DNA of 31,404 bases, from positions 1-31,404 of IMG/VR virus record IMGVR_UViG_3300043427_000209. One strand, given 5' to 3'. Of this stretch, positions 5,221 through 27,658 are shown in pieces. Below the pieces are notes generated by a model. That model was not told where the DNA came from. It saw only the letters and a program-made list of their open reading frames with translations, and ran no database searches. The stretch comes from a virus. Within the stretch, counting starts at the first letter, position 1, and every line of letters starts with the position of its first letter. The position numbers and the translations under genes were made by a program.

Positions 5221-5619
5221 ATGGCCGAACAGTATGGCAATAGGTCCGATTTGCGGAATCCTGCGACACGGCAGGTCCGGTTCACGGGGCAGACGTATGG
5301 TGAGGGGGCGCAACAGGCGGCTTCTCAGCAGGCTGTCCCTCCGGGTTCTTCGCCGGCGCAGGTGCAGGCACAGCAGATGGCTGCCCGTCAGGCTCCACGT
5401 CCGGGCGCACAGCCTTTGTTGCGTCCGACCGACCGTCCGACCGAACCGATCACCGCTGGCGCAAACTTCGGTCCCGGCCCGAACGCAGCTCAGGCGGGTG
5501 TGGTCACTCGCATCATCCCGGTAGACGACACGATGGAAACCTTGCGTGCCTTGTACGCCGCATACCCGAACGAAGAACTTGCCAATATGTTGAGCAAGTA
5601 CGGGAACCAAGGTTACTGA
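5221..5619 (+). CDS. Small Gln/Pro-rich virion-associated protein, unknown
   Basis: A 132-residue protein placed 2 nt after the portal stop and overlapping the next gene by one base (TGATG). Residues about 25-100 are low complexity, rich in Gln, Ala and Pro, and probably disordered. The C-terminal 40 residues (VVTRIIPVDDTMETLRALY onwards) look folded and helical. I do not recognise a family. Its position between portal and the giant internal protein suggests a structural or assembly role, for example a portal-associated or head-filling protein. No catalytic motif is seen. Confidence 0.75.
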   Translation: MAEQYGNRSDLRNPATRQVRFTGQTYGEGAQQAASQQAVPPGSSPAQVQAQQMAARQAPRPGAQPLLRPTDRPTEPITAGANFGPGPNAAQAGVVTRIIPVDDTMETLRALYAAYPNEELANMLSKYGNQGY

Positions 5620-8600
5620 TGTCCGGTTTTGATTTTACGCCGGATGAAGAAAACCAACTTCAACGGGAACTTGATGAATCTGAGAATCGGATGGCTGCTG
5701 CGCGGGCGTCGATTGTTACTCCGCAGTTGTCGCAAAACCTGGCGAACTTTTACCGTCAGTATCCGTCAGCGAACCTAGGTGTTCTGATCCCCGCTGCTCG
5801 TGCCTATACAGACGGCAAGATGACAGAAGAACAGGCGCAAGAGTTCTTGGGTACTGTCGTAAAAAACTCGGTGTTGGAAAAGATCCGTGAATACGGTGCA
5901 ACACGTGAAAAGAAGAAGTCGTGGTGGGAACGTAACGTCCAAGACAAGTTCAAGACCGGTGTTCGCTACACGTTTGCTGGACTGAACTTTGTCCCGCAAG
6001 CGGTGACCAACCTTGCATCGCAGGCGTACGAGGTCGGCAAAACCGGCGACATTTCCGATTTTGATTTCAATGGGTTCTTCATCTCAACTGACATCGGCAC
6101 GCTGATCGCTAATGATGAGGTTGCGGGCGAGGGCTTTTTCTTGGGTGGTCGTGCAGCACAGTTGCAGGCGGAACGCGCCCGCGCCTATCGAGGCACTATT
6201 GATGGGCAGGCGTTCACTTTGGGCCGTGGTTTGGCGACGGTTGTTGCCCAGCCTGGTACCGAGGAATATCGCAGGTATTCAGGCATTGTTGATGCTGCCG
6301 CAGCGTTCGCTATCCCTTCCCTCCCTGGTTTGGGTGCGGCTAAAGGTGCCGCTGCAGGGCTAGCGAATCGGACTGGGTTGCGTGTTCTCGCCGGTTTGAC
6401 TGATGGCCCTTCCGCTGGGATCAACCCTGCGAAGGTCGCTGACTTTTTCAATAGCAGTTCTGGTCGCAAAATCATTGGGCGTATGTCCGAGATTAAAAGT
6501 GTGGACGAGTCGCTAGAAATTTTCCCGACTGCCGATCTGCGTTTCCACAAACAACTTGTTGATATTTCTACCAATGGGAAGTTGAATGCGGCCCAGAAGC
6601 AAGATGCGATGTCGCGTTTTGTGAACGACACGCTGGGTGCTGGCGATCCGACTCGCGGGATTGGCCCGAAGTCGATTGATGACATCAACATCTCCCGGTG
6701 GGACGACATGAAGTTGAAGGTCGCCCAAACACGCAGTCTTCCTGCGAGCCTGATGGCGAAAGTCCCTGGCCGCCATGTCATTGTTGCTGGAGGGAACGAC
6801 GCCGATCTTTTGCAGTCGGTGAAGAACGTCAATAACTATCTGAAAGTTTTGCGCGTTGACCCGAAGAAGCGTTCTGAACTAGTAGGCGATTTGACTAACG
6901 CTCTTGTTGACAACAACGGCAACGTAAGAAATGTCGTCGATAAACTTGACAACATTTTGAAGACAGCGTTGAAAGACTTTGGCGTAACAGACGAGTTGTC
7001 TGCCTCGCTCCGCTCAGGTATCCGCCAATTCAAAGACGCATACGACAGAGACCTATACGGTTTCATTGACGACCAAGGTAAGGCGTACTCGTTCGCTGAC
7101 ATGGGTGCCAAGTTCATTGACATGGACGGCAACCTTGTCGATGCCCCGCTAGCGACTGCTGGTATCCAGTCAGAGATGCTGAAGCACGGCCTGTTTCTCC
7201 CTGATCCTCGCCGTGTGCGCCGTATCGCCAACTCAGAAACCGGCCTCAGTTCGCTGCTGTCTTGGGTTGGCACCAAGCAGGGTTTGTTGAACGCCGAAAA
7301 TTTCGGTGATTTGCGTATGCCCCTTGTCGCAGTTGAGGCAATCCAAAACTATGTTTGGCGCCCCCTCACCCTCCTAACTGGTGGCTATGTTCTCCGAAAC
7401 ATGACCGACTCGCTTCTCCGTCAATCATTCTCACCTAACCTCAGGACTGGCGCGTTCCACCCGTGGGAACTTATCCAGGTCGCCATGCACAAGCGTTTCA
7501 AGGGCGACATTGAGGGCGTGCTGTTCCAGGGAGACCCTGAGGATTTGATCCGAAACGGCCAGCAGGAACTTGTTGAGGCGACTGCCGGTTCGTTGCGTGA
7601 AGGTTTGGACCCTGTTGTGCGTCAGGCCCGCGAACGCGCTACTGGCGTGTGGCGTCGAGTTCGCAGAGGCGATGGCATCACGGAATATCGTAACGCTTTA
7701 GCGGCGGAGATCGCGTTGCTGAACGGCGATGAGGTCGCCCGCAAATACGCGCAGGGCTGGTCAACAAAAGAAATCTTGAACTGGATGAAAAACAACCCAG
7801 ATGGACGCCTGTATGTACGCAAATTGCAGGGTCGCTGGTCTAACCGGACGTTGAACAACACAACAACCGGCGAAACAAAAGTTGGAACAGTCAAGTTCAT
7901 TGACGAAGCAGGCGAGTTCAACACAAAGAATCTTGAAACCTATATTGACCGTTACATCCGTCCCCGTGTCGAGGTAACGACTGGTGGCAGTTCCGTTCTT
8001 AAAAAGGCGATTGGTGATGGCGAGGTCGTGCTTGCTGACGGGACCGTTCTGAGCGCGTTCCGAACCTCACGCAAGGGGGACCAGATCATCGGCTACACCG
8101 ACGAGTTTTTGGATGAGGCGATGAAGGTCGTCAACGACCCGAACATCCAGTTGAAGGAATTTTACAAGTCGCAGGTTTACGCGGGCGGGGCTGCTGATGG
8201 GGCCGGGAACGCCTTGAACCGCGCACTTGACGGCTATAACCGTGTTGTCGATCTGTTCTTCTCCGAGCTGTACCCGAAGCGTGAAGCCTTCTTGAACCGT
8301 TCGCCGGCGTTCCGACAGTTCTATTACCAGTCTGTGAACCGTTTCTTTGACGAGTTGAAACCGGGCGAAGCGAAGCGCATCTACGACAACATCGCTGAAA
8401 CGATCATGGAAAGCCGTAAAGGCACTCGCGCCGCAGGCCGTAAGGTCACCGATAAAGACGTAACCAAATACATTGGTGACGGCGACATCGCTCAACGCCT
8501 CATTGACCGTGTTACTGGCAAAGTCAAGACCGCAGGCAATCTGAGCCTGGAACAGGTGAACGCCTACGCCAAGGGGTTCGCTCTCGACGAAACAAAGCGG

Positions 8601-10190
8601 TTGTTCTACAACGCTGCAGAACGATCAAACTTCTCCGACATTATGCGTGTTATCGCCCCGTTTGGGTCAGCATGGTATGAGGTCAGTAAGCGGTGGCTTG
8701 GCGACATGACCCGCAACCCAGAAATCTTGAAGCGTGGAGCCATGACCGTCCAGGGTTTGAAGAACGCTGACCCCGATGGGGACGGCAAAGGCTTCTTCTT
8801 CCGTGACCCGCAGACCGGCGAATACGTGTTCAACTATCCGTTCAGCGAACAGCTTGCACCGTTCATGCTGGGTTTGACAGGGGCGGTTGCCGGAGGTATC
8901 GGGTTCGGCCTGCCAGGTATCGCTATTGGTGGCACGCTTGGCGCAGGCGTCGGTACTGTCGTCCAGCCACAACTGGAAGGCATTAACACGGTTCTTGCTG
9001 CGCCAGCCAAAACACTCAGCATGGGACTCAATTTCCTGCCGGGTGTCGGCCCGGTAGCCCAGGTTGCGGCTAGCAAGATCATCCCCGACAAACCGAAATA
9101 CGATTTTGTTAAATCGTTGATCGCGCCTTATGGGGAACCCGAACTGGGTGTTGTCACTAAACCGGCATGGTTTGACAAGTTGTGGTCTGCGTTCTTCGCT
9201 GATCCAGAAAACGACCGCCTGTTCGGTGACATGGTGGTTGACACTATGCGCGCTCTTTCGACCACGGGCGAATACGATCTGACTTCGGCAACGGAACGTG
9301 ACCGCCTGGAACAGGATGCGAAATCAAAAGCACGAGTGTTGCTGACCCTGCGGGCGTTGGGGCAGTTCACTGGTCCGACACGGCCAACGGTTGAGTTCAC
9401 TATTGACACTAAACAGGGCGACGTTTATGCCGGGGAACTCGCAAAGATATTCCGTCAATTCCAGTCGGAAGATTTTGATACGGCAGTCCCACGTTTCTTG
9501 GACACGTTCGGTGAAGATGTTTTTCTGTATGTCGCCGGTAAGACCCGCGCCAATGCTGGCGGCTTGGACGCGACCAAAGAGTTTGGTAACTGGGAACGCG
9601 AAAACGAAGGGCTGTTTACAACGTACCAAGATGTAGCCGGATACTTCGCACCTACAGGGTCTAACTTTGATTACCGCGTTTACTTGCGCCAGCTGGAAAC
9701 AGGCAAACGGGAACGTTTAACTCCTGACGAGTTGATGAAAGAAGCGCAGGCTCTTGTCGGCAAATCGGTGTATCGCTATATTGTTCGTGCTGTTGGCCCG
9801 AAGCCGAACGAAGCGCAACGTGAAATGTTGCGTGGCGTGCGAACCGAACTTGAAGGCCAGTTCCCCGGTTTCGCTGAGGCACCATTGGACATCAACCGGT
9901 TTGACCGGCAGATCAGCCAGTTGCGTGAAGCGGCTAATGACCCACGTCTGGCGGATAACAAGGTGGCGGAAGGTCTCCGTTTGTATTTGCAGGCGCGAGA
10001 TGAAGCGTTGAAGGTTGTTCAGGCGCGCGGGTTCCCTTCTCTTGCTGGCGACAAGATGAATGATCTTCGGGGCCAGTTGCGCCAGGTCGGTGAACTTCTC
10101 GTCCAGCAGTTCCCCGAATTTGAGAGACTGTATGACCGTATTCTGTTCAACGAAATTGATTTGGATGTAGAGGTGCAAGGTGGCTCTTAG
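5619..10190 (+). CDS. Very large putative internal virion / ejection protein
   Basis: At 1523 residues this is by far the largest gene. The N-terminus is helical and acidic (many Glu/Gln); an Ala/Gly-rich segment lies near residues 225-262; the middle is a mix of charged helices; a Gly-rich hydrophobic region (about 1080-1130, with GAVAGGIGFGLPGIAIGG) could insert in a membrane. The C-terminal 300 residues are again helical and charged. No protease, muramidase or polymerase motif was found by eye. Large proteins with amphipathic membrane-active segments next to the portal in podoviruses are typically internal core proteins ejected into the cell with the DNA, and that is the inferred role. A tape-measure protein is less likely because it lies before the capsid gene. 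It overlaps its neighbours at both ends (TGATG; 11-nt GTG overlap), so translation is coupled. Confidence 0.75.
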   Translation: MSGFDFTPDEENQLQRELDESENRMAAARASIVTPQLSQNLANFYRQYPSANLGVLIPAARAYTDGKMTEEQAQEFLGTVVKNSVLEKIREYGATREKKKSWWERNVQDKFKTGVRYTFAGLNFVPQAVTNLASQAYEVGKTGDISDFDFNGFFISTDIGTLIANDEVAGEGFFLGGRAAQLQAERARAYRGTIDGQAFTLGRGLATVVAQPGTEEYRRYSGIVDAAAAFAIPSLPGLGAAKGAAAGLANRTGLRVLAGLTDGPSAGINPAKVADFFNSSSGRKIIGRMSEIKSVDESLEIFPTADLRFHKQLVDISTNGKLNAAQKQDAMSRFVNDTLGAGDPTRGIGPKSIDDINISRWDDMKLKVAQTRSLPASLMAKVPGRHVIVAGGNDADLLQSVKNVNNYLKVLRVDPKKRSELVGDLTNALVDNNGNVRNVVDKLDNILKTALKDFGVTDELSASLRSGIRQFKDAYDRDLYGFIDDQGKAYSFADMGAKFIDMDGNLVDAPLATAGIQSEMLKHGLFLPDPRRVRRIANSETGLSSLLSWVGTKQGLLNAENFGDLRMPLVAVEAIQNYVWRPLTLLTGGYVLRNMTDSLLRQSFSPNLRTGAFHPWELIQVAMHKRFKGDIEGVLFQGDPEDLIRNGQQELVEATAGSLREGLDPVVRQARERATGVWRRVRRGDGITEYRNALAAEIALLNGDEVARKYAQGWSTKEILNWMKNNPDGRLYVRKLQGRWSNRTLNNTTTGETKVGTVKFIDEAGEFNTKNLETYIDRYIRPRVEVTTGGSSVLKKAIGDGEVVLADGTVLSAFRTSRKGDQIIGYTDEFLDEAMKVVNDPNIQLKEFYKSQVYAGGAADGAGNALNRALDGYNRVVDLFFSELYPKREAFLNRSPAFRQFYYQSVNRFFDELKPGEAKRIYDNIAETIMESRKGTRAAGRKVTDKDVTKYIGDGDIAQRLIDRVTGKVKTAGNLSLEQVNAYAKGFALDETKRLFYNAAERSNFSDIMRVIAPFGSAWYEVSKRWLGDMTRNPEILKRGAMTVQGLKNADPDGDGKGFFFRDPQTGEYVFNYPFSEQLAPFMLGLTGAVAGGIGFGLPGIAIGGTLGAGVGTVVQPQLEGINTVLAAPAKTLSMGLNFLPGVGPVAQVAASKIIPDKPKYDFVKSLIAPYGEPELGVVTKPAWFDKLWSAFFADPENDRLFGDMVVDTMRALSTTGEYDLTSATERDRLEQDAKSKARVLLTLRALGQFTGPTRPTVEFTIDTKQGDVYAGELAKIFRQFQSEDFDTAVPRFLDTFGEDVFLYVAGKTRANAGGLDATKEFGNWERENEGLFTTYQDVAGYFAPTGSNFDYRVYLRQLETGKRERLTPDELMKEAQALVGKSVYRYIVRAVGPKPNEAQREMLRGVRTELEGQFPGFAEAPLDINRFDRQISQLREAANDPRLADNKVAEGLRLYLQARDEALKVVQARGFPSLAGDKMNDLRGQLRQVGELLVQQFPEFERLYDRILFNEIDLDVEVQGGS

Positions 10191-16136: not shown

Positions 16137-16406
16137 ATGATCAAGCATCAGGAAACCCACCCTGGCCTGGACGTTGACGGCTGTTTCGGCTGCAAGATTG
16201 CGGGGATCTCGATTTCGTCTGCGGCGATGCCGGGCCGGAAGTCGGATTCGCATCGGATCAACGAAACCGAGAAGCAATGGCATAAGGATATGGATGCCTA
16301 CAAGCGGCTTCGTAAGGACGGCTTACAACCGAAGAAGATTGACGGGTCGCATATGGTGGAGGCGAAAGCCAAGGAGTCGTATCAGGTGGAAACCGGGCTG
16401 GTCTGA
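16137..16406 (+). CDS. Small conserved phage protein with CxxC
   Basis: An 89-residue protein from the ATG at 16137; an in-frame ATG at 16095 would give 103 residues and overlap the previous gene. The later start is preferred because a TAGAAT box lies 7 nt upstream and neither start has a good ribosome site. The pattern is a Cys pair in GCFGCKI, then ISISSAAMPGRK, then a charged helix with EKQWHKDMDAYKRLRKDGLQ and a C-terminal DGSHMVEAKAKE. This arrangement (CFGCKI / AMPxR / W-x-KD / AYKRLRxDGLQP) is a recurring small actinophage protein of unknown role, usually in or near structural blocks. Confidence 0.72.
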   Translation: MIKHQETHPGLDVDGCFGCKIAGISISSAAMPGRKSDSHRINETEKQWHKDMDAYKRLRKDGLQPKKIDGSHMVEAKAKESYQVETGLV

Positions 16407-17521
16407 TGCTCGGTTCGCTTGACGTTGTTTCCGTCAATATCCCGTATGTCGGGTATGGTCGGATGGCTGACTCGATTAGGGATGCTCTTGTGGATCGGGT
16501 GGAGTTGCGCCCTGATGCGTCGGCAGTTGTGTATGGGATTCCGCCTGACATGGTGAAAGGCTGGTACGAGGGCCAGCGTACGGCGGTGCTGACGATGTGG
16601 GAGACAACGAAGATCCCGCTCAGGTTCACCCGTCTGCTCCCGATGTTTGACACGCTGCTGGTTCCGTGTGGTTGGAACGCCGATCTGTTCGCCCCATATC
16701 ATCGGAACATCAAAGTGATACCACTAGGTATAGACGTAGATTTTTGGCGACCACAAGATGTTGTGGACAACGACCGGTTCACGTTTGTGACGGGCGGTTC
16801 CGGCTGGAAGCGTAAGGGTATAGATCAGGCGATCCAAGCGTTCCGTGACGCCGCCCTACCGGACAGCCGGCTGCTGATCAAGGTGACCCCACACCTGCTA
16901 GATAAGCCTGCCTCCTACGATTTTGGGCCTGACATAACGGTGGTGGAGAAGACGATGACGTTGGCTGAGGAACGGGCGTTCTACGCTCAGGCCGACTGTT
17001 TCATCTCGACCACTAGGGGTGAGGGGTTCGGGATGATCCCGTTGCAGAACTGTGCGTTGGGGAACCGGGTGATCGCCCCATCTCATACCGGCCATCTCAT
17101 GTTTGACCACCTGTTTGACTATGGGTTGTCTTGGGATTACGGCAAAGCAGAAATGCAGTATTTCAGCGACATCGGAGACTGGTTCGTGCCGGATCATTCG
17201 GAGCTGGTGGAGGCGATGGTGGACGCCTACGGGAAGGGTCGCCCGCCGTTGTGGGAACGCCAGATGCGGTGGGAATCTGCCGAGGTCTGGTCATGGGATC
17301 GGACAGCAGACAGCCTGCTAGAGGCGTTTCCTCCTGGTGTGCCGCTCGCAAACCCGAAGTGGGTGCCTGCCGGCCAGATTGTTGTGCGGGTCCGTACACT
17401 CCGCAAGGTGGAAGCTGATGTGGGGGCGTTCCGGTTGCGGTTCCCCGCCAACGCCGAGGTGGATGTCCCGGTGTCTACGCTGACGCATCTTGTCGAGTGC
17501 GGGCTGGTCACCGAAATCTAG
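16406..17521 (+). CDS. GT-B glycosyltransferase (GT4-like) with extra C-terminal domain
   Basis: A 371-residue protein starting in a TGATG overlap. Residues about 1-110 form the N-terminal Rossmann-like half, with PYVGYGRMADSIRDAL and WETTKIP. The hinge VIPLGIDVDFW (about 108-118), the basic GSGWKRKGID (about 131-140) and the donor-site segment STTRGEGFGMIPLQNCALG (about 199-217) are typical of group-1 transferases, with the E-x7-E type motif altered. A further piece after residue 315 (QIVVRVRTLRKVEADVGAF to the end) is not part of the catalytic fold and resembles small phage structural domains. Phage GTs can modify DNA bases, host surface or virion proteins; here the gene lies inside the virion block, so glycosylation of a virion protein is a reasonable hypothesis. 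Confidence 0.82.
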   Translation: MLGSLDVVSVNIPYVGYGRMADSIRDALVDRVELRPDASAVVYGIPPDMVKGWYEGQRTAVLTMWETTKIPLRFTRLLPMFDTLLVPCGWNADLFAPYHRNIKVIPLGIDVDFWRPQDVVDNDRFTFVTGGSGWKRKGIDQAIQAFRDAALPDSRLLIKVTPHLLDKPASYDFGPDITVVEKTMTLAEERAFYAQADCFISTTRGEGFGMIPLQNCALGNRVIAPSHTGHLMFDHLFDYGLSWDYGKAEMQYFSDIGDWFVPDHSELVEAMVDAYGKGRPPLWERQMRWESAEVWSWDRTADSLLEAFPPGVPLANPKWVPAGQIVVRVRTLRKVEADVGAFRLRFPANAEVDVPVSTLTHLVECGLVTEI

Positions 17522-21047: not shown

Positions 21048-22085
21048 ATGGCAGGTTACACTCGTAGAGCTTTCAAGGGGGCGGCTACCGCTACCACTTT
21101 GACTGCTTCCATGTCCAATGTGGCGACTTCTTGCACGATCGCCGCGTATACCGGTTGGCCGTATGGGTCGGACCCGTTCTATGTGGTCATTTCTCCTGGT
21201 ACTGCTGCTGAGGAGAAGGTGTTGGTGACCCGTACGGGGTCTACTGATACGACTTTGAATGTGGTGTCGGGTGGTCGTGGGGCGGATGATACGACGGCTC
21301 AGGCGCATGATTCTGGGGCCGGCATTTTCCCGGTGTTCACGGCGAAGGATGCGGATGAGGCGAATGTGGTTGCTTCGACGCAGACCACGAAGGGCGATCT
21401 GCTTCTTCATACCGGGTCGGCTCATGCCCGGTTGGGTGTTGGGACGAATGGTCACGCGTTGGTGGCTGATTCGGCTGAGACTGCGGGTGTGAAGTGGGCG
21501 GCTGTTGGTGATGTGACGACTGCCGGTTCGCAGACGTTGACCAACAAGACGATTGCCCTCGGATCGAACACGGTGTCGGGTACGTTGGCCCAGTTCAATA
21601 CGGCGGTCACGGATGCTGATTTGGCGTCGTTGGCTGGTACGGAAACCTTGACCAACAAGACGTTGACAAACCCGGTGGTGAACGGTGCGATCTTGGATCG
21701 TTCCGAGGAGAACTGGAATATTGTTGCGTCAGCTGCGACCGGCACAATCAACTTTGATGTGAACACGGCAAGCATCTGGTATTACACGAGTAACGCTTCG
21801 GCTAACCATACGATCAACGTGCGAGGCGATGGTTCTACTACGTTGTCGAGTTTGCTTGCTGTGGGTGATTCGATCACGGTGGCCTGGTTCAATACGAATG
21901 GTGCGACCGCGTACTATCCGAACACGTTTCAGATTGACGGGTCGTCGGTGACTCCGAAGTGGCAGGGTGGTACTGCTCCGACTGCGGGTAACGCCTCTTC
22001 GATCGACGTGTATGTGTATACGATTGTGAAGACGGCGGCTACGCCGACGTATACGGTGTTTGCTTCTCAGACAAAGTTTGCGTGA
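21048..22085 (+). CDS. Tail fibre protein (putative receptor-binding)
   Basis: A 345-residue Thr/Ser/Ala-rich protein. It starts with a small beta module (about 10-100; 'KVLVTRTGSTDTTLNVVSGG') like that in the connector protein. Next come DLLLHTGSAHARLGVGTNGH and the repeated SQTLTNKTIALGSNTVSG / TETLTNKTLTNPVVNG (about 160-225), a hallmark of tail-fibre shafts. The last 120 residues form a likely compact beta domain. AAGGA precedes the ATG. It is followed by three adhesin-like paralogues, so host recognition is probably spread over this set. Confidence 0.82.
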   Translation: MAGYTRRAFKGAATATTLTASMSNVATSCTIAAYTGWPYGSDPFYVVISPGTAAEEKVLVTRTGSTDTTLNVVSGGRGADDTTAQAHDSGAGIFPVFTAKDADEANVVASTQTTKGDLLLHTGSAHARLGVGTNGHALVADSAETAGVKWAAVGDVTTAGSQTLTNKTIALGSNTVSGTLAQFNTAVTDADLASLAGTETLTNKTLTNPVVNGAILDRSEENWNIVASAATGTINFDVNTASIWYYTSNASANHTINVRGDGSTTLSSLLAVGDSITVAWFNTNGATAYYPNTFQIDGSSVTPKWQGGTAPTAGNASSIDVYVYTIVKTAATPTYTVFASQTKFA

Positions 22086-22088
22086 CGT

Positions 22089-22649
22089 ATGGGCCTTGTC
22101 GCGGTTCGTTCTAATGCTGGCGTGTTTGGCCTCGGCTGGGGGAACAAGCTTGCTGATGCTGGGGCGATGACTGCCATCGCTAGCAATACGCTTGGATCGG
22201 ATTCGGCAAGCATCACGTTTTCTTCGATACCTGGTACGTATGACGATTTGATGGTTGTGTGTTACATCAAGAGCAACGGCACCAGTAATGAGTCAGCCCG
22301 GCTCAGGTTCAATTCTGACACGGGGTCAAATTATTCCAACACTTACTTGTATGGCGACGGCTCTAGCCCGGGTTATTACTATGACACCTCTCGCTCATAC
22401 ATCCAGAGTTATGCTTCTTCAACGGGTGTTTCAAATCAGGTAGCACACATTTTGAATTATGCGAACTCGTCCTACAAAAAGACCTGTCTGATGCGGTCGG
22501 CGCAGGATAATAACGGTTCTGGTTACACAAGTTTGGAAGTTGGCTTGTGGAACTCAACTAGCGCGATTACGTCCGTCACTCTTGTTTCTCAGACCAGTTT
22601 TCGTACTGGTTCCGTGTTTGCTCTTTATGGGATTAAGAAGGCGGCCTGA
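22089..22649 (+). CDS. Adhesin-like tail appendage protein, copy 1
   Basis: A 186-residue protein and the first of three tandem relatives. Shared landmarks are ITFSSIPGTYDDLMV (about 42-56), LRFNSDTGSNYSNTY (about 72-86), STSAITSV (about 156-163) and a C-terminal LYGIKKAA. A 30-residue N-terminal extension (GLVAVRSNAGVFGLGWGNKL) is unique to this copy. Base composition in this block is more A/T-rich than in the surrounding genes. The domain looks like a beta-sandwich of the kind seen in receptor-binding tips. No enzymatic motif. Receptor binding is inferred from position after the fibre gene. Confidence 0.7.
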   Translation: MGLVAVRSNAGVFGLGWGNKLADAGAMTAIASNTLGSDSASITFSSIPGTYDDLMVVCYIKSNGTSNESARLRFNSDTGSNYSNTYLYGDGSSPGYYYDTSRSYIQSYASSTGVSNQVAHILNYANSSYKKTCLMRSAQDNNGSGYTSLEVGLWNSTSAITSVTLVSQTSFRTGSVFALYGIKKAA

Positions 22650-22651
22650 TT

Positions 22652-23173
22652 ATGGCAGCGTTTGAAGCAATCGCATCTACGACAATCGGCACAGAGGCCG
22701 CGACTATCTCATTCACGTCAATCCCTTCATCTTACGAGCATTTGCAGTTGCGAGCATATGTAAGAACTGACAGAGGTTTCGGCGGGAACCAACTACTTTT
22801 TATGAGGTTCAATAGCGATACTTCATCTAATTACGCTTACCACCAGTTGAGTTATGACGGCGTTTCTCCTGCTGCTACTGGCGGCGCGTCCTCAACGCTC
22901 ATGTATTGTGGCTACGCAACAGGGGTTCTTGCGCCTACCGGCGTTTACGCTAGTTTTGTTGTGGACCTTCTTGATTACGCTTCAACAAACAAACACAAAA
23001 CAATGCGAAGTCTGGCTGGCAACGACTTGGCTGGCGGTGGATTTCTGGGCTTTCACTCTGGCGTTTGGATGAGTACAAGCGCAATATCGTCAATCCAGTT
23101 CGGGTTGGTGAACTCGTCAGCCAAACTTGTTACCGGTACTGTCGTGTCGTTGTATGGGTTGAGGAGTTCCTGA
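22652..23173 (+). CDS. Adhesin-like tail appendage protein, copy 2
   Basis: A 173-residue protein, 2 nt after copy 1. It carries the shared landmarks ISFTSIPSSYEHLQL (about 19-33), MRFNSDTSSNYAYHQ (about 51-65), STSAISSIQFGL and the ending SLYGLRSS. The middle third, between the conserved ends, differs strongly from the other copies, as expected if it carries the variable binding surface. It ends in a TGATG overlap with copy 3. See copy 1 for the reasoning on role. Confidence 0.7.
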   Translation: MAAFEAIASTTIGTEAATISFTSIPSSYEHLQLRAYVRTDRGFGGNQLLFMRFNSDTSSNYAYHQLSYDGVSPAATGGASSTLMYCGYATGVLAPTGVYASFVVDLLDYASTNKHKTMRSLAGNDLAGGGFLGFHSGVWMSTSAISSIQFGLVNSSAKLVTGTVVSLYGLRSS

Positions 23174-23694
23174 TGGCTATCACTCTTATTGCCCACACAG
23201 AAGTCGGTTCGGGCGGCGCGGCCAACATTGAGTTCACGTCGATCCCCAGCACCTACGATGATTTATGGATCGTGCTTTCCGCGCGTTTGTCCCTCGCGGG
23301 GTCGAACTACGCAGAAGTAGCTTTGCGTTTCAACGGGGTCACGACAACTTCTTACAGCCGGACTACCCTCACCGCCTTTTCAAGTACCGTCAACTCTGGG
23401 CGAGCCACCAACTCGTCATCTTATTTGCATGGTACTGTCCCCGCAGCAGACGCCAACTCAAACATTTTCGGCAGTTCGTCCATTTACATCCCCGCATACG
23501 CCAACACGTCAAACAATAAACAAATCATTTCAGAATCAAACGGCGAAAATAACAGCACAACAGCATGGTCGAACCAATACACGGCGGGCCTGTTCAGAAG
23601 CACGTCTGCGATTTCTTCAATCACTATTTTCCGTTCAAGCACAACGTTTGTCCAGTATTCAACAGCGACCCTGTATGGGATTAAAAAGTTCTAA
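23173..23694 (+). CDS. Adhesin-like tail appendage protein, copy 3
   Basis: A 173-residue protein. The frame opens earlier (from 23065), but the ATG at 23173 overlaps the preceding stop and places the shared start motif correctly. Landmarks are IEFTSIPSTYDDLWI (about 19-33), VALRFNGVTTTSYSR (about 49-63), STSAISSITIF and the ending LYGIKKF. It has an Asn/Ser-rich middle with many A/T-rich codons. Together with copies 1 and 2 it forms a paralogous array. Confidence 0.72.
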   Translation: MAITLIAHTEVGSGGAANIEFTSIPSTYDDLWIVLSARLSLAGSNYAEVALRFNGVTTTSYSRTTLTAFSSTVNSGRATNSSSYLHGTVPAADANSNIFGSSSIYIPAYANTSNNKQIISESNGENNSTTAWSNQYTAGLFRSTSAISSITIFRSSTTFVQYSTATLYGIKKF

Positions 23695-23703
23695 GGAGTA
23701 GTC

Positions 23704-23931
23704 ATGCCTACCAAACTCATTGTCAACTGCGAAACAGGACAGACTGAGGAAGTCGAACTGACCGCCGAAGAAATCGCCCAGGCCGAAGCCGACACACAGG
23801 CGTTCGCCGCAGAACAGGCTGCCCGCGAACAAGCCGAAGCGGAACAAGCCGCAGCCAAAGCATCCGCTGTCGCGAAGCTCGCAGCCCTCGGCCTCACCTC
23901 AGACGAAGTATCAGCCGCTTTCGGACTGTGA
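23704..23931 (+). CDS. Small acidic coiled-coil protein
   Basis: A 75-residue protein with a short beta start (MPTKLIVNCETGQTEEVEL) and a long Ala/Glu/Gln helix (about 20-60), ending in a helix LGLTSDEVSAAFGL. Such short helical proteins often follow fibre genes; a fibre chaperone or a small virion protein is possible. AAGGAG precedes the start. Its codons are far richer in C/G endings than those of the preceding adhesin genes. Confidence 0.7.
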   Translation: MPTKLIVNCETGQTEEVELTAEEIAQAEADTQAFAAEQAAREQAEAEQAAAKASAVAKLAALGLTSDEVSAAFGL

Positions 23932-27157: not shown

Positions 27158-27658
27158 ATGGACACCAAGATTTGCTCTATTGACGGCTGCAAACGAAACG
27201 CAAGAAGTCGAGGATGGTGTCCAATGCACTATGCTCGTTTTCAACGTAATGGCGACCCAACGCTCGTCATTGACCGGTGGGCCAATCGCAGCACCGAAGA
27301 CCTGAATTGGTCAGTAAACGCAGACGGTTACCGATATGCGTATTACCAAAACAAAAGAATTTTGGAGCATCGTTTTGTTTGGCAGCAACATCATGGTCGT
27401 GTGTTACACCCCTTTGAGAACATTCATCACATCAACGGGATCAGGCATGATAACCGCATTGAGAACCTGGAACTGTGGACGAAAGCCCAACCTTGCGGCC
27501 AGCGTCCCGAGGATCTGGTGACGTGGGTTGTTGAGAACTATCCGGAACTAGTCGCAAAACAAATGAAGAAAGGTAAAGGTAGTGGGAAATCTCATAGTGA
27601 AACCCCAACACGGGTCAATCGAATGGTTGAGACTGCGGCATCGGGACGAGGACGGTAG
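27158..27658 (+). CDS. HNH endonuclease (homing-type)
   Basis: A 166-residue protein. A zinc-binding N-terminus uses Cys6, Cys11, Cys21 and His24 (CSIDGCKR...WCPMH). The HNH core spans about 68-107: ILEHRFVW, then ENIHHINGIRHDNRIENLEL, with His90-His91, Asn99 and Asn103 as likely active-site and structural residues. Codon use is more A/T-rich than in the neighbours. The last 25 residues (from about KSHSETPTRVNRM) are encoded over the start of the exonuclease gene in a different frame. This looks like a mobile homing-type nuclease gene inserted into the early operon. Confidence 0.85.
   Translation: MDTKICSIDGCKRNARSRGWCPMHYARFQRNGDPTLVIDRWANRSTEDLNWSVNADGYRYAYYQNKRILEHRFVWQQHHGRVLHPFENIHHINGIRHDNRIENLELWTKAQPCGQRPEDLVTWVVENYPELVAKQMKKGKGSGKSHSETPTRVNRMVETAASGRGR

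Follow-up and report, generated by a model that had tools for sequence, protein, structure and literature searches.

Three paralogous genes of an uncultured tailed phage, conserved as a set, are candidate subunits of a heterotrimeric receptor-binding tip

The gene triplet and its surroundings

The DNA analyzed here (the window) is the entire IMG/VR record IMGVR_UViG_3300043427_000209, 31,404 bases long and possibly itself a fragment. Since PHROG profile matches revealed genes for a terminase, a portal and a major head protein, the window belongs to a tailed phage. The deposited records nearest to its head protein were Streptomyces phages, which make up 29 of the 59 matches (best identity 44.9%). 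A 1523-aa ORF between the portal and head genes (5619-10190) has a partial PHROG match to a family without an assigned function, a protein at 14895-15263 matches Pfam Gp80 (podophage GP4 fiber I protein; E 1.2e-33), and a glycosyltransferase-like ORF (16406-17521; phrog_2170, E 2.4e-18) is found among the structural genes. The features of the locus are given below, where A, B and C denote three types of the family that are defined in the next section.

21048..22085, + strand: P0004, upstream protein, matching phrog_23837 (virion structural protein) at E 4.5e-37
22089..22649, + strand: gene 1 (P0001), 186 aa, B-type body plus N-terminal extension
22089..22166, + strand: 26-aa N-terminal extension of gene 1, proposed to be the only anchor of the complex
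22652..23173, + strand: gene 2 (P0002), 173 aa, A-type body, no extension
23173..23694, + strand: gene 3 (P0003), 173 aa, C-type body, start overlapping the stop of gene 2
23704..23931, + strand: P0005, small acidic protein, 75 aa, conserved downstream neighbor

Gene 3 starts at ATG 23173, which overlaps the TGA of gene 2; the TTG at 23065, where the listed ORF begins, was rejected as an over-extension. Part of the C-terminal half of P0004 matches records of Synechococcus, Prochlorococcus, Pelagibacter and Roseobacter phages. On the other side, a P0005-like ORF starts no more than 260 nt 3' of the cluster in 143 of 168 representative clusters, and P0005 is perhaps a fiber chaperone.

An earlier note, made from the letters of the window alone, had described positions 22,089-23,694 as a tandem triplet of diverged, adhesin-like paralogs with shared ends in an A/T-rich block. 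The triplet was borne out, with three ORFs in place and pairwise identities of 37% between genes 1 and 2 (BLASTP E 1e-26), 36% between genes 1 and 3 (E 2e-17) and 29% between genes 2 and 3 (E 4e-11). Judged from sequence, this similarity is far above chance and the three genes are paralogs. The shared ends held in part: F[ST]SIP..Y..L and STSAI[ST]S occur in all three proteins, whereas RFNSDT.SNY is limited to genes 1 and 2 (gene 3 has RFNGVTTTSY) and LYGIKK to genes 1 and 3 (gene 2 has LYGLRSS). The A/T-richness was also confirmed, since GC content was 0.493 in the block vs. 0.567 across the whole window. Of 596 sliding stretches of 1606 bases, just 3 had a GC content below that of the block, all of them overlapping it, and the lowest value among stretches clear of the block was 0.524.

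The three proteins have no ready counterpart in the family collections. Pfam contained no family for any of them at E values up to 1, PHROG gave no match for gene 1, and the weak PHROG matches of gene 2 (E 0.14) and gene 3 (E 0.071) were both to families of unknown function. With P0002 as the sole query, neither relatives in viral contigs nor a match among PDB chain sequences was found, and profile searches of PDB chain sequences returned two chance-level matches (E 0.1 and E 3) and nothing else.

Three types and their conservation as a set

A first scan of IMG/VR with gene 3 as the query yielded 147 relatives among 184 candidate stretches, from which 80 loci were kept. A profile search of the ORFs in these loci and the window (81 in total) showed three family members in 68 of them; 8 had two members, 3 had one and 2 had four. 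In 10 of the 11 loci with fewer than three, the cluster begins less than 160 bases from the end of the locus; the eleventh is L004. A tree built by a quick method from the 171 proteins of 57 distinct triplets splits the family into three clades, A, B and C, with supports of 98, 97 and 99, respectively. Proteins of the same type were on average 46-53% identical between loci, and those of different types 32-34%. Given the three clades and the higher identity within types, the triplication predates this phage group.

Gene order was A-B-C in all 56 relatives included in the tree, and the window is the exception, with B-A-C. Type-specific HMMs trained without the window agreed with the placement of its genes in the tree: gene 1 lies in the B clade (support 97) and the B-type HMM wins by 31 bits, gene 2 falls within the A clade (support 98), where its long branch is flagged as unsure by the tree program, and the A-type HMM wins by 78 bits, and gene 3 lies in the C clade (support 99) and the C-type HMM wins by 60 bits. 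For all 996 members longer than 140 residues, types were assigned with a median margin of 102 bits, and two members had margins under 5 bits.

To escape dependence on gene 3, we also performed wider IMG/VR scans using B-type and A-type alignments as well as one A-type and one B-type protein of relatives. The wider sample consisted of the best 80 loci per scan (327 loci plus the window), and the type profiles applied to it were trained without the window. Merging loci that have an identical member left 262 clusters, 186 of which were complete, i.e., had more than 700 bases on both sides. One each of A, B and C, in the order ABC, was found in 167 complete clusters. The others were ABCABC (8), AABC (2), ABCB (2) and single cases of ABCABCABC, aBABC, ABB, BAC (the window), BAbBAC, C and b. 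The 76 clusters nearer an end were ABC (53), BC (9), AB (4), ABCABC (4), A (2) and one each of ABb, ABCABCABC, BCABCAB and C. Three complete clusters lack the set: L132 (ABB), L004 (C only) and L274, in which one domain forms the end of a 799-residue frame.

Several clusters depart from the plain set in detail. In L003, which is ABC, A is split into two pieces. L189, L235, L308 and L034 are ABC with one additional, distant domain; in L189 and L308 this domain is preceded by a stretch with GLKWAAPAGG and in L235 by a similar stretch, comparable to GVKWAA in P0004 of the window. L325 looks like two B-A-C sets, going by the type profiles, its third gene being ambiguous with a margin of 1 bit. Where ABC clusters are doubled or tripled, copies of the same type share 33-55% identity; sets were thus multiplied as complete units and have long been retained intact.

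Outside of the viral contigs, a scan of bacterial and archaeal genomes found two contigs binned with genomes: L332, which is A-B-C, and L331, which has A in two pieces, B, and a third gene fitted equally by the B and C profiles. Among 50,697 deposited phage records, members occurred only in OX376640 and OX376641 (one phage by name), and OX376640 is A-B-C. The family is therefore nearly absent from deposited phages, yet two of the IMG/VR scans yielded at least 575 and at least 585 relatives, respectively.

These counts bear on the origin that had been proposed for the triplet, namely duplication and diversification or an acquisition of receptor-binding tips. Duplication with diversification is supported, as an old and frozen event rather than a recent or freely copy-variable one. 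A fresh acquisition in this phage was not borne out, as the three orthologous types are old and one of each has been kept. A single copy in all relatives, which the earlier note had weighed against its own reading, is refuted by the 167 of 186 complete clusters with one each of A, B and C. With one of each in these clusters and further forms of the set in most of the remaining complete ones, the locus is neither a freely variable array nor a new arrival.

The set is also marked by a peptide on one of its members and by tight gene junctions. Among complete ABC clusters, 140 of 162 A-type members have at least 10 aa of N-terminal extension, compared with none of 167 B-type and none of 166 C-type members (the count covers members whose match starts no later than profile position 6). 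Where the order is B-A-C (the window and each half of L325), it is the B-type gene in first position that carries the extension. The extension therefore appears to be tied to gene position rather than to body type. By eye, that of the first gene of L325 resembles the extension of the A-type protein of L123 (MAISRF..S.L.QGLPK.Q..WD). For the window, the idea that its extension is a copy of an A-type anchor was rejected, as the best score, 36 (L242), was attained in 37 of 300 shuffles and is not significant. Stop-to-start gaps of -4 to 10 nt were observed at 158 of 167 A-B junctions and 143 of 167 B-C junctions. In one relative, an HNH endonuclease gene (HNH_3) lies between B and C of the triplet (L012:4435-4974), and the window contains an HNH_3 gene at 27158-27658; both are possible homing elements.

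Variable segments, subunit exchange and predicted fold

Divergence of the middle beside conserved ends, as previously noticed in the window, was found in all three types: mean entropy exceeds 3 bits within approximately residues 36-50 and 76-90. The modeled structure of gene 3 places these very variable segments at the loop that follows the third main strand and at a hairpin. To look at variation of whole subunits, we compared 229 distinct triplets in 26,106 pairs, and in 24 pairs one or two subunits were more than 85% identical while another was less than 60% identical. No pair had all three subunits above 85%, where the prior merging of loci with identical members removes near-identical phages and the plainest mosaics. 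The 24 mixed pairs show that subunits are exchanged singly, so that strict matching of partners is unnecessary, a point against the heterotrimer proposed below.

Some relatives carry additional domains. In L020, both B and C have long C-terminal Gly_rich_2 (PF21722) domains (L020:2870-4117 and L020:4120-5487), and in L034 a fibronectin domain precedes A. In the first three scans, C-terminal extensions longer than 60 residues were found in 8 of 205 B-type and 13 of 201 C-type members and in none of 191 A-type members. Gly-rich and fibronectin-type extensions are common in adhesins.

AlphaFold2, given a 45-row alignment, predicted gene 3 to be all beta, with a pLDDT of 93 and a pTM of 0.88. A Foldseek search of viral models (BFVD) with this structure gave 95 matches at E <=0.001, the best 50 of which were mostly unnamed phage proteins; those listed included proteins named Gly-rich (E 3.8e-16), fibronectin (2.5e-13), collagen (4.5e-12) and Stf (1.1e-11). 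These phage proteins share the predicted fold and are longer and multi-domain. Foldseek found nothing in the PDB at E 0.001 or below. VIA-align, for which Z below 8 is no evidence of homology, gave a GH32 enzyme (Z 7.8), the C-terminal domain of Chlamydia Pgp3 (Z 7.2) and C1QL2 (Z 6.2), with legume lectins and galectins also among the middling matches. These middling scores point to a jelly-roll-like sandwich with no proven relative. The adhesin-like character suggested earlier is thus supported by weak structural matches to a C1q/lectin-like beta sandwich, by the variable segments and by the Gly-rich and fibronectin-like extensions of relatives.

The match to C1QL2 brings to mind the C1q/TNF-like trimers. 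C1q has three paralogous chains in one trimer, with small jelly-roll heads and an adhesive function, and C1QA, C1QB and C1QC are neighboring paralogous genes. No sequence match between such trimers and the triplet was found, and unlike C1q, the triplet proteins have no collagen stem.

To model the subunits together, we made use of clusters in which the three genes lie in one frame. In L167, reading two stop codons as residues gives a chain of 503 residues. The alignment for the joined model contained 10 in-frame triplets, 10 A-B pieces and 10 B-C pieces, the two-gene pieces having been chosen from 60 A-B and 34 B-C. Four of the 14 in-frame triplets were omitted: L275, L238 and L303, which share a contig and overlap with L030, L167 and L259, respectively, and L226, whose extension is long. 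Among the 20 two-gene pieces, two come from L275 and hence repeat L030. An earlier joined alignment, in which single-domain rows were all placed on the C part, was dropped. AlphaFold2 returned a pLDDT of 84.7 and a pTM of 0.83 for the joined A-B-C chain of L167, with values below 50 only at the two artificial joints. A far lower pTM is expected for three equal domains without a defined mutual placement. The result therefore supports a compact A-B-C assembly, with nearness of the domains being forced by the joining into one chain itself. In VIA-align, about one domain of the joined model (101 residues) aligned with 5kca, an 807-residue chain whose title names a C1q trimer, and none of the listed PDB chains matched all three domains together. 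Since only one domain or so was aligned, a C1q-like arrangement is not shown by the joined model. On the question of a homo- or heterotrimer, which the earlier note had raised as a matter for prediction, the heterotrimer is the best-supported reading overall.

Assembly of the three subunits

The retention of the same three types by hundreds of uncultured phages suggests a joining of one of each rather than of three identical copies. Indeed, the fixed composition, the multiplication of whole sets, the single attachment peptide, the abutting genes and the confident joint fold all fit one chain per type. We therefore consider the triplet to be, quite probably, a heterotrimeric receptor-binding tip of 1:1:1 composition, in which a single peptide serves as the anchor and three rapidly evolving faces can each be exchanged on their own; its geometry, anchoring, receptor binding and 1:1:1 stoichiometry are what we infer from the genomic and modeled features described above. 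In such a tip of a tailed phage, the three genes would encode three different subunits, each a small jelly-roll-like beta sandwich. One chain each of the A, B and C types would assemble around a pseudo-threefold axis, equal synthesis of the subunits being favored by their abutting or overlapping genes. The gene read first would supply the sole N-terminal peptide, which would fix the trimer to the tail or to an adjacent fiber, and the variable segments would form three distinct, independently evolving faces that bind glycans or proteins of the host surface.

Two described systems resemble this arrangement. According to the accessible sections of the report, virophage DSLV2 has three consecutive PF07484 tail genes that form clades by position, and their products co-purify as a heterotrimer of ~55 kDa, taken as 1:1:1 and proposed to be a receptor-binding tip; tail proteins of this type occur in 44 further virophages (PMC12724248). 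Like these, the genes in the window are three consecutive, related genes in the same orientation with products that cluster by type across genomes. The domains differ, that of DSLV2 being PF07484 (gp37-like), which is absent from the window proteins along with any other Pfam family. In mycobacteriophage Mysterious, the available part of a preprint describes a baseplate heterotrimer of gp35, gp36 and gp37 with beta-sandwich-like domains, in which N-terminal projecting arms are contacted by a tail protein, gp35 bears a C-terminal extension, and six heterotrimers form a bowl (PMC13252515). The likeness to the triplet (a tailed phage, consecutively numbered products, a beta-sandwich type) is one of description. 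By analogy, the triplet family would work like the heterotrimers of DSLV2 and Mysterious. Multiplication of sets, swapped order with a position-bound extension and exchange of single subunits are features of the triplet family that go unmentioned in the accessible parts of both accounts (PMC12724248, PMC13252515). As far as the available text of two further reports goes, one heterotrimer, with two copies of gp31 and one of gp32, is a wedge of the baseplate and not a fiber (PMC10966104), and TNF-fold tips occur on Bdellovibrio fibers (PMC10769870). No published account of the triplet family itself was found in searches of the literature on phage heterotrimers, C1q-like phage tails, phage Mysterious, and freshwater actinobacterial phages whose tail genes are paralogous or hypervariable.

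The main alternative, which we regard as unlikely, is that A, B and C form three separate homotrimers at different places on the tail (e.g., stacked rings or three fiber types), each of them essential. Since one copy per ortholog follows if each type has its own essential place, the three orthologous types in one copy each are expected here too, and singly exchanged subunits fit well. Longer chains that end in a relative of the domain, expected to be homotrimeric, point the same way: that of L274 ends a 799-residue frame, and the extra copies in L189, L235 and L308 sit behind a long N-terminal stretch. However, homotrimers would not readily account for an extension that is confined to one type per set, is bound to position in the B-A-C clusters and leaves two of the three proteins without it. 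Nor do they lead one to expect the doubling and tripling of whole sets or a pTM of 0.83 for the joined chain.

Covariation was examined for signs of contact between subunits, by averaging the top 20 APC-corrected mutual-information pairs and comparing this score with 20 shuffled pairings. The score was 0.217 for A-B (shuffles at most 0.207) and 0.226 for B-C (shuffles at most 0.213), and A-C showed no excess (0.203 vs. a shuffle average of 0.203). With a downstream gene added as a control (192 triplets), column pairs with z>4 numbered, per 1000, 0.90 for AB, 2.18 for BC and 0.71 for AC, vs. 0.57, 2.02 and 2.52 for the control gene with A, B and C, respectively. Since the excess is about equal with the control gene, covariation was rejected as a sign of A/B/C contact and speaks neither for nor against it; the lack of a signal beyond the control is also what separate homotrimers would give. 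Mirror-tree correlations were slightly higher among A, B and C (0.34-0.41) than with the control gene (0.21-0.28), a difference that is not decisive.

It is more improbable still that the proteins form a heteromeric structural collar or ring of the tail or baseplate without direct host recognition, their variability reflecting relaxed constraint or escape: the Mysterious heterotrimer is, in the available part of its description, a baseplate bowl and not described as a receptor binder (PMC13252515), but the two high-entropy segments (mean above 3 bits) found next to conserved ends in every type, the Gly-rich and fibronectin-type extensions of some relatives and the one-by-one exchange of subunits between phages argue against such a role.

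The preferred reading, a heterotrimeric receptor-binding tip, can be extended to the family as a whole, here with more doubt than confidence: obligate, asymmetric A1B1C1 adhesins may be widespread in uncultured tailed phages, with faces exchanged by way of single genes and with some phages carrying two or three heterotrimers. Phage fibers and spikes are mostly taught as homotrimers. If true, a three-faced heterotrimer would be a combinatorial receptor-binding system, the phage counterpart of the three-chain head of C1q, and would explain how phages of uncultured bacteria could tune their host range by swapping a single gene.
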